Assembly (NCBI GenBank): GCA_947623905.1
Contig: CANQHX010000001.1
Coordinates: 1-64,000 of the forward strand
DNA from: an uncultured Lachnospiraceae bacterium
Lineage (GTDB): Bacteria; Bacillota; Clostridia; Lachnospirales; Lachnospiraceae
DNA: 64,000 nucleotides
Direction of reading: 5' to 3'
Part shown: positions 16,262 to 18,506 of the stretch, in pieces
Position numbering within the stretch: position 1 is the stretch's first letter
Layout of the letters: every line of letters starts with the position of its first letter
Made by a program: the position numbers and the translations under genes
The notes under the pieces: generated by a model
Seen by the model: only the letters and a program-made list of their open reading frames with translations
What the model was told of the DNA's origin: nothing
The model's database searches: none

Positions 16262-16317
16262 AATTGTTAAGAAGATGTTTACATAATCTTTTCAATTAAA
16301 AAGGGAGGATGAACAAA

Positions 16318-17241
16318 GTGAGAAAGATGTGGAAAAAACTGACGGGTGTTGCATTGTCTGCTGTAATGCTGGTGGGGACATGCATGAGCGCTGTGGCTGC
16401 AAATTCGCCTTTTGGATGGCCTTTGAAGGATGATACCAGATATTATCTGTACCGGGGCGTTGCCAACGGACATGAAGGACTGGACATCGCCGCGTCGGAC
16501 GGGCAGCCGGTGCTTGCGGCAGCAGACGGCGTGGTCAGGGGGATCTATGTGGGCTGCACCAATTACGACGGATATGACGAGACCGGCACCAACTGCAAAA
16601 AGCGGGGAAAATGCAATCCCACGTATCGTTCCAATAGCTGTCCCCAGGGATATTCATCCGACGGATTCTGCAACGGCGGAAACGGCAACTGCGTGATCAT
16701 ATATCATGAAGGACAGAAGGTCGCTACTTCTTATGCCCATATGGTAAGTATCGCGCAGAACCTGAAAGTAGGGGACAAGGTGAAAAAAGGACAGGTGATC
16801 GGGTATGCGGGAAGCACAGGACGTTCCTCCGGCACCCATCTGCACATTGAGACCCGTGTAGGCACCATGGGCAGCAATGCGCTGACATTCTGGAACAACC
16901 CCCTTGGCAATCTTCTGGACTACCTGCCCTCCAGCATTACGTCCAGGGTTTCCGGTTCCGGTTCTGAGGGACATACAGGAGTCCCCGATACAACACCAAC
17001 ACCCACACCCACACCAAAGCCGGAGCCGAAGCCGGAGTTAATGCCTCTCGTGGCTCACGGACTGGGCGACATAGATGATGACGGGAGAATAACCGTAGCC
17101 GACGCATTGAATGTTCTGCGTTTCGTGGTAGGCACTGTGAAGCCTACGGCGGAAGAAGAGGCGAGAGCCGACGTCAATGATGACGGGAAAGCCGATACTC
17201 AGGACGCATTGCATATCCTGAGATATGTGGTGTACAACTAA
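16318..17241 (+). CDS. Secreted M23 peptidase with a Cys-rich insertion and a C-terminal dockerin domain
   Basis: The ATG at 16309 directly abuts GGGAGG (16303-16308); GTG at 16318 has nine-base spacing and is chosen. The product is 307 residues with a signal peptide ending near SAVAAN. The M23 domain keeps its zinc ligands H52/D56 (HEGLD) and H174/H176 (HLHIE). Between strands lies a ~45-residue insertion with eight cysteines (GC, NCKKRGKC, NSC, FC, NC), suggesting disulfides. A Thr-Pro/Lys-Pro-Glu linker leads to a type-I dockerin-like pair of calcium loops (about 250-305: GDIDDDGRITVADALN and ADVNDDGKADTQDALH). Dockerins bind cohesins; no cohesin gene is visible here. It is monocistronic, with its own promoter and terminator. 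Confidence 0.88.
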   Translation: MRKMWKKLTGVALSAVMLVGTCMSAVAANSPFGWPLKDDTRYYLYRGVANGHEGLDIAASDGQPVLAAADGVVRGIYVGCTNYDGYDETGTNCKKRGKCNPTYRSNSCPQGYSSDGFCNGGNGNCVIIYHEGQKVATSYAHMVSIAQNLKVGDKVKKGQVIGYAGSTGRSSGTHLHIETRVGTMGSNALTFWNNPLGNLLDYLPSSITSRVSGSGSEGHTGVPDTTPTPTPTPKPEPKPELMPLVAHGLGDIDDDGRITVADALNVLRFVVGTVKPTAEEEARADVNDDGKADTQDALHILRYVVYN

Positions 17242-17297: not shown

Positions 17298-17326
17298 TTG
17301 AAAACCCCGGGGCGAACAAGTATAAT
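17298..17326 (+). promoter_or_regulatory. Candidate promoter of the ParA operon
   Basis: TTGAAA (17298-17303), 17 bases and TATAAT (17321-17326), starting two bases after the preceding terminator; the leader would be about 75 bases. Confidence 0.6.
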
Positions 17327-17407: not shown

Positions 17408-18199
17408 ATGAAGAAAGATACGAAAGTGATTTGTTTTGCCAACAACAAAGGCGGCAGCGGCAAGACCACTACCTGCGCCAATGTGGGCTACAGCCTGTGG
17501 GAGATGGGCCGGCGGGTGCTTTTGATCGACGGGGATATGCAGCTGAACCTGTCCCTTTCTTTTTTTAGCGAGGAACAGGTGCTGGATATGGCAAAAAGTG
17601 AGCGCAATCTGTATCACGCCGTGTGCGATCAGAAGGATCTGAAGGATTATATTGTCCGGACCCCGCAGGAAGGGCTGGATCTGATCCCGTCCTCCACGCT
17701 GATGAGCGGCATTGAATTTCAGCTGTTTACCAAATGGCAGCGGGAATTTATACTGAAACGGTGCCTGTCTTCGATCGCGGGATCGGGAGAGTATGACTAC
17801 ATTCTCATTGACGCGCCGCCCACCCTGGGAGGATGGGTGATGAACATCCTGTGCGCTTCCCACGGCATCATTGTTCCCGTGGAGGCCAGCCCCTGGGGGC
17901 TGTTCGGCCTGGCAAACATGTTCGAATTTCTGGGCCAGGTGAGAGATATGGCCCGGGATCTGCAGACCATGGGGATCGTCATCACAAAGGTCAACACGAG
18001 AAAAAATTATTTTAAACAGACCATGGACGCTCTGCGGGAGCTGAAGGAGATACCGGTGTTTGACAGCTACATACGGATCGACAGTACCATTGAGTGGTCC
18101 CAGGATAATAACCAGCCGGTGGCGGCATACAGAAAGAGCAGCCGCAGCGGCGCGGAATACAGGGCATTGGCTAAGGAGGTAGATGAATATGCCTGGTAA
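17408..18199 (+). CDS. Orphan ParA-family positioning ATPase
   Basis: ATG 17408 with GAGGAAG close upstream; 263 residues. The deviant Walker A KGGSGKT (14-20) has the signature Lys of ParA/MinD proteins; Walker A' is DGDMQLN and Walker B is LIDAPPTLGG. No N-terminal HTH is present, so it belongs with type Ib/orphan ParAs that pattern cargo on the nucleoid (chromosome origins, chemoreceptors, carboxysomes, storage granules). No parB or parS-like gene is next to it. The following frame overlaps by 11 bases and encodes a basic Ala/Lys-rich protein, the likely partner. The C-terminal region (Arg/Lys-rich YRKSSRSGAEYRALAKE) could bind DNA non-specifically. Confidence 0.88.
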   Translation: MKKDTKVICFANNKGGSGKTTTCANVGYSLWEMGRRVLLIDGDMQLNLSLSFFSEEQVLDMAKSERNLYHAVCDQKDLKDYIVRTPQEGLDLIPSSTLMSGIEFQLFTKWQREFILKRCLSSIAGSGEYDYILIDAPPTLGGWVMNILCASHGIIVPVEASPWGLFGLANMFEFLGQVRDMARDLQTMGIVITKVNTRKNYFKQTMDALRELKEIPVFDSYIRIDSTIEWSQDNNQPVAAYRKSSRSGAEYRALAKEVDEYAW

Positions 18200-18506
18200 G
18201 ACAAAAGTTGGAACCGGAAGCATGCAGAGAGCAGCCAAGAGCGCGGCCGCCGCAAAGCCTGCCGCGGCAAAAAAGACAGCCGGGACAAAGACCGCGGCAG
18301 GATCAGCCGCAAAAACGGCAGGGACCGGAACAGCAAAGGCAAAGAGCGGAAAGACCACGGCGGCAAAGGCTGCCGTAAACGCGTCTGTTCTTGTGCCGGA
18401 TCCTCAGGTAAACGCGCTTGTGGACGCCGCGGCGGCGCCTGAGACCGAAAAGAAGCCCAGACAGGAGAGCAGGATATACAGCGCCCTTCCGGTGCATCTG
18501 CTGTAG
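18189..18506 (+). CDS. Histone-H1-like Ala/Lys-rich small protein, partner of ParA
   Basis: ATG 18189 lies nine bases after AAGGAGG (18173-18179); ATG 18183 is too close. The product is 105 residues. Residues 1-65 are Lys/Ala/Thr/Gly repeats (AAKS, AAAKP, AAAKK, TAG-TKT, AAKA), like the tails of histone H1, AlgP, PhaF or the HU extensions of actinobacteria. Residues 66-105 are non-repetitive (NASVLVPDPQVNALVD, ending ESRIYSALPVHLL) and could be the contact to a partner. The 11-base overlap with parA indicates coupling. By analogy with PhaF/PhaM and McdB it could link a cargo to the nucleoid; that is inference. The gap after it holds an imperfect 10-bp inverted repeat near 18560-18596, without a T tract. 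Confidence 0.75.
   Translation: MPGKTKVGTGSMQRAAKSAAAAKPAAAKKTAGTKTAAGSAAKTAGTGTAKAKSGKTTAAKAAVNASVLVPDPQVNALVDAAAAPETEKKPRQESRIYSALPVHLL

Follow-up and report, generated by a model that had tools for sequence, protein, structure and literature searches.

Results

A Soj-Like ATPase Gene Overlaps the Gene for a Small Basic Protein

The window analysed here, a 64,000-nucleotide stretch of contig CANQHX010000001.1 (C1 in our numbering) from an uncultured Lachnospiraceae bacterium, encodes a ParA-type ATPase followed directly by a small basic protein, which we call the adaptor (Table 1). The two frames overlap by exactly 11 bases (18189–18199), as an earlier note on this DNA had stated, with the adaptor starting at ATG 18189 and an in-frame alternative ATG at 18183. 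That note had also given the pair its own promoter, and a promoter-like element matching 11 of 12 consensus positions, a match by consensus only, indeed precedes ParA. Further upstream, positions 16309–17241 encode an M23-like peptidase that, as read from the sequence, ends in dockerin-like repeats; similar genes lie at the same site in two relatives, G204 and G181.

Table 1. Features of the ParA–adaptor locus (window coordinates).
Feature	Position	Strand	Basis
Promoter-like TTGAAA-17-TATAAT 5' of ParA (putative)	17298..17326	+	11/12 consensus match; consensus only
ParA/Soj-like deviant Walker-A ATPase, 263 aa; McdA-like by context	17408..18199	+	Pfam AAA_31, AF2 fold, alignment
Deviant Walker A motif NNKGGSGKTT with ParA signature lysine	17441..17470	+	Lys14, Lys19 invariant in 23 orthologues
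Small basic Ala/Lys-rich adaptor, 105 aa, McdB-like	18189..18506	+	Overlapping homologues with common termini after 61/112 orthologous ParAs
N-terminal motif VGTGSMQR, putative ParA-contact/activation peptide	18207..18230	+	[VIL][GS]xxS[ILMV]xR in 55/55 distinct adaptors
C-terminal motif LPVHLL, putative shell/cargo-binding peptide; His at aromatic position	18486..18503	+	Family LPx[Y35/H11/W6/F3]L[LM], 55 distinct adaptors

The ATPase matches Pfam AAA_31 (1.4e-50). Its AF2 model (pLDDT 85) has its best solved counterparts in ParA/Soj (Z 33.6) and McdA (Z 28.2), and comparison of the sequence with structure chains gives 1e-22 to 1e-29 for ParA/Soj and 1.5e-11 for McdA, placing the protein nearer to Soj than to McdA in both sequence and fold. 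The Walker A motif and Arg198 are invariant in an alignment of 23 sequences; Arg198 aligns with a conserved arginine of the Soj family and, from what is known of Soj, presumably binds DNA.

The Small Frame Is Conserved at Its Termini

Overlapping adaptors with the same termini follow 61 of 112 orthologous ParAs, so the earlier note was right to call the tail conserved-looking; one more adaptor, at locus L067, runs off its contig before the C terminus. In 55 of the 61, the distance from the adaptor start to where the ParA stop codon ends is 10–20 bases. Non-conservation of the small frame, which the note had named as the outcome that would speak against its proposal, was looked for in relatives and did not hold there; the common termini and the near-fixed overlap indicate a real gene, conserved into its tail. 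Near the N terminus, [VIL][GS]xxS[ILMV]xR is present in all 55 distinct adaptors and in 0.02% of residue shuffles; it includes an arginine and usually a lysine as well. The C-terminal LPx[YHWF]L served as the rule for detecting adaptors, and its presence in 55 of 55 is therefore by construction; the residue at its aromatic position is Tyr in 35, His in 11, Trp in 6, and Phe in 3. The window protein has His there, not the Tyr, Phe, or Trp expected of microcompartment (BMC) adaptors. Between the termini the sequence varies, from 51-aa minimal proteins up to 200-aa Lys/Ala repeats.

Could the small protein be a histone-H1-like, DNA-compacting protein that follows ParA by chance? The earlier note's epithet "histone-H1-like" reflects composition only (27% Ala, 13% Lys, net charge +12; by composition count, 77% of residues fall within AKTEPSGQ). 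The window protein has no significant Pfam match, falls in no family, and was not matched by a histone-family profile; the only notable match to Pfam HC2, in one relative, scored 25.8 bits, far below the cut-off of 40. What relatives conserve are the short terminal segments at either end and not the Lys/Ala middle, which some relatives replace with a ParB_N domain or acidic-mixed sequence, and the adaptor start overlaps ParA almost always. We regard such a chance neighbour as very improbable.

ParA Co-occurs with GRM5 Microcompartments

Clustering of the genes that surround ParA at 80 loci brought out microcompartment genes. ParA (presence cut-off E < 1e-80) is found in 41 of 397 Lachnospiraceae genomes, and BMC shell genes in 118; all 41 ParA-positive genomes carry shell genes (41/41 versus 118/397 overall; Fisher 7.7e-25, although this and the following p-values overstate independence because the genomes share ancestry). 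Presence and absence are well separated, since a looser search at 1e-40 across 60 relatives brought no further matches. Outside the family, all three ParA-positive genomes found are BMC-positive, compared with 12 of 30 in an arbitrary sample of other members of the class.

GRM5 is the fucose/rhamnose aldolase type of BMC (1,2-propanediol). Among the 118 BMC genomes, ParA occurs in 41 of the 77 with the GRM5 class II aldolase and in none of the 41 without it (1.3e-10), four genomes having been reassigned to the aldolase-positive group on split, partial, or weaker matches; under a strict aldolase cut-off of 1e-120 the counts become 37/73 and 4/45 (p 2.6e-6; GRM5 as defined in PMC4207490 and PMC6325248). 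In 16 of the 41 genomes, BMC genes are found on the contig of ParA at a distance of ≤15 kb. These linked loci contain BMC-H, PduT, PduS, PduL, and genes for glycyl radical enzymes, one of which has diol dehydratase 5i2a as its best match. ParA is dispensable for the organelle, since 36 of the 77 GRM5 genomes lack it.

Co-occurrence, linkage, and synteny point, with good confidence, to GRM5 fucose/rhamnose microcompartments as the cargo. The adaptor itself is present in 31 of the 41 ParA genomes and absent in 10. The earlier note's McdB-like positioning idea is well supported by comparison, and the cargo that it called unknown can now be assigned to GRM5.

The Pair as a Probable Satellite of a Dispersed System

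In the window's own genome, a BMC locus lies on another contig and the pair does not adjoin BMC genes; searching the window with the BMC proteins of the main locus gave no match. The main GRM5 locus (C2:45253-54010) encodes an aldolase, an aldehyde dehydrogenase, an alcohol dehydrogenase, four BMC-H proteins, PduL, BMC-P, PduS, and PduT, and C40 adds a diol dehydratase-like enzyme and its activase. Together, C2 and C40 hold the GRM5 set: class II aldolase, aldehyde dehydrogenase, Zn-alcohol dehydrogenase, PduS, PduT, shell proteins, and dehydratase with activase. A break near residue 623 divides the glycyl radical enzyme of this set (1,2-propanediol dehydratase-like; L218, G000:C40:14216-16695) between two reading frames, through either real decay or an assembly error. 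A satellite locus (L135, G000:C122:476-1875) adds two shell genes; the EutP/PduV-like GTPase that it also encodes is a second candidate for a positioning factor in this genome.

The site of the pair is syntenic with G204 and G181, in which an Fe-alcohol dehydrogenase (lactaldehyde-reductase/PduQ-like) directly follows the adaptor, as it does at other loci too; in the window this gene is absent and a tRNA-Gln takes its place. Because the GRM5 parts are dispersed, and because G204 and G181 keep the site together with the Fe-alcohol dehydrogenase, the pair is probably best seen as a satellite of a dispersed GRM5 system.

Some Adaptors Contain a ParB N-Terminal Domain

Six scanned adaptors (L092, L071/L104, L010, L026, L037, and L221) match Pfam ParB_N with values of 6e-9 to 1e-13, all clearing the gathering cut-off. 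These adaptors come from several branches, and the domain sits between the conserved termini; L100, L028, and L036, close relatives of some of them, have a featureless linker instead. An AF2 model of one ParB_N-bearing adaptor, built from four sequences only, reached pLDDT 43.5 and was uninformative. Retention of the domain in some adaptors suggests descent from ParB, and the simplest reading would be a ParB-like ancestor from which ParB_N was lost repeatedly. The statement in the earlier note that parB is missing holds locally, with none beside the window pair, but must be amended for several relatives, whose adaptors contain this ParB domain internally.

A Soj-like ATPase whose partners sometimes carry ParB_N might also be the remnant of a ParABS-type DNA-segregation system, or a partition pair of a mobile element, with a coincidental link to BMCs. 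No helix-turn-helix domain was found in the six scanned ParB_N-bearing adaptors, however, and a canonical Soj/ParB pair lies on another contig of the window's genome; chromosomal synteny is stable, and the co-occurrence with BMCs is without exception among the 41 ParA genomes. Such a segregation remnant or mobile-element pair seems to us hardly credible.

A Clade without the Adaptor

In a quick tree whose branches are supported only in part, all ParAs that lack the adaptor except L077 fall into one clade. A relocated adaptor was not found by regular expression over the 16-kb loci or in three BMC operons, nor when 11 genomes without an adaptor were searched with a profile; this negative is weak, as the profile also missed two of six known adaptors, including that of the window. 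Directly after ParA, this clade usually has an AraC-type regulator (L011-L017, L137, L138), followed by a rhamnulokinase and then a rhamnose-isomerase-like gene, which suggests that ParA may be co-regulated with rhamnose use.

All ten genomes of the clade have one BMC-H gene with an in-frame basic tail of 35–87 residues, which has an ATG and a Shine-Dalgarno-like site of its own; where the gene would ordinarily start, another Shine-Dalgarno and ATG follow. From the two apparent starts (L138:17879-18376, L139:3984-4370, L150-L156, and L159), a long form with the Lys/Ala-rich tail and a short form from the internal site (KEEKRM) can be read. Tails on BMC-H also occur in many genomes without ParA. 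K[TA][AILV][QEA]RV is present in 10 of 10 tails of the clade (shuffle frequency 0.0007) and in none of 15 others (4 from adaptor-positive, 11 from ParA-negative genomes), a motif chosen after looking and, because the ten genomes are one clade, counting as one evolutionary event. Its likeness to adaptor N termini, such as VGKSSIQRVK, extends over only three or four residues. As a general rule, replacement of the adaptor by a tail was set aside: adaptor-less G495, outside the clade, has a tail without the strict motif. We treat replacement by a shell tail as a lead, not a result. Tentatively, and with considerable doubt, one may join it to the origin of the adaptor: a ParB-derived protein would repeatedly have lost its ParB_N (CTPase-type) domain, keeping only a peptide for ParA at its N terminus and one for the shell at its C terminus, and in one clade the basic tail of a dual-start BMC-H would have gained K[TA]xxRV, letting ParA grip the shell without an adaptor.

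A different job for the pair in GRM5 microcompartments (assembly, recruitment of enzymes, or regulation, for example) would also suit the clade in which an AraC regulator immediately adjoins ParA and the adaptor is missing, and the same co-occurrence data fit such a job. Yet the ParA fold with its invariant Walker A is typical of nucleoid-gradient ATPases, and the adaptor's architecture parallels that of McdB; we therefore think a role other than positioning unlikely.

Discussion

Our analyses revealed a gene pair with conserved adaptor termini, a ParA fold, strict co-occurrence with GRM5 genes, and partial linkage to them. From these observations, it is in our view probable that the pair positions GRM5 (fucose/rhamnose, 1,2-propanediol) microcompartments in the manner of McdAB, and we propose the following model. 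Dimers of ATP-bound ParA would attach to the nucleoid. The basic N-terminal motif of the adaptor would contact ParA, stimulating ATP hydrolysis and release, while the Lys/Ala linker, presumably disordered, may provide reach, multivalency, and perhaps condensation. The C-terminal LPxYLL-type peptide (LPVHLL in the window) would keep the adaptor on the shell, and a moving zone of ParA depletion would space the compartments and divide them between daughter cells. Against this reading, the window's pair does not adjoin BMC genes, its adaptor has His at the aromatic position, the ATPase is nearer to Soj than to McdA, and about half of the GRM5 genomes do without ParA.

How closely does this pair resemble McdAB of carboxysomes? 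As there, a ParA/MinD-family ATPase with a deviant Walker A and invariant lysines precedes a small, basic, low-complexity partner, and the proposed cargo organelle is a BMC; the partner lies directly downstream, with an overlap kept in relatives, in what is predicted to be one operon. Its conserved N-terminal motif, with an Arg and usually a Lys, may correspond to the basic N terminus of McdB, and its C-terminal motif to the short cargo motif there. The first 20 residues of McdB are enough for McdA binding (PMC12204374), and McdB requires its C-terminal aromatic residue to associate with carboxysomes (PMC11321042); by this likeness, the N-terminal motif of the adaptor may be a ParA-contact/activation peptide and the C-terminal motif a shell- or cargo-binding peptide. 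In contrast to McdAB, the probable cargo is a GRM5 metabolosome, the C terminus reads LPx[Y/H/W/F]LL in place of a Trp motif, and the window pair is unlinked to the BMC operon. By mechanism, we propose that it works like McdAB; we do not file it as McdAB because the window adaptor lacks the C-terminal aromatic, the ATPase is nearer to Soj, and the genes stand outside the BMC operon.

The concept is not new, since putative McdAB-like pairs near PDU/GRM operons were proposed earlier (PMC8262871; PMC11321042). Those pairs share with ours the proposal, the gene order, and, for most of this adaptor family, a Tyr or Phe within the last five residues. What differs here is the tie to GRM5 by genome counts, the His variant, the ParB_N-bearing adaptors, and the adaptor-less clade with its motif-bearing shell tail. 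In the literature covered, to which the primary 2020 survey (MacCready 2020) does not belong, we met neither an assignment to GRM5 based on counting genomes nor ParB_N-bearing adaptors nor the tail lead; on that basis we consider the last two new.

Two other systems invite comparison. Soj/ParA–Spo0J/ParB is closest to the ATPase in fold and sequence and shares the ParB N-terminal domain with some adaptors, but differs in the helix-turn-helix, not found in the scanned adaptors, and in the BMC association, the genome having its separate Soj/ParB. PduV/EutP GTPases, for which a role in BMC positioning has been proposed, are likewise encoded in GRM5 sets and in the satellite locus of the window's genome, but are unrelated, Ras-like GTPases with no adaptor.

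A positioning system of this kind is known for carboxysomes and is at most predicted for the GRM5 type of compartment. The pair bears on how catabolic microcompartments find their place in the cell and pass to daughter cells. A 2021 review described the organisation of metabolosomes as unclear (PMC8262871), and McdAB, ParA, and MinD proved irrelevant to the Pdu compartments of Salmonella in a 2026 study (PMC12866334). The pair is a defined, genetically simple candidate in many gut Lachnospiraceae, with its cargo named, and natural variants, including His, Tyr, and Trp termini, ParB_N-containing adaptors, and adaptor-less genomes, make the question of metabolosome positioning directly testable.
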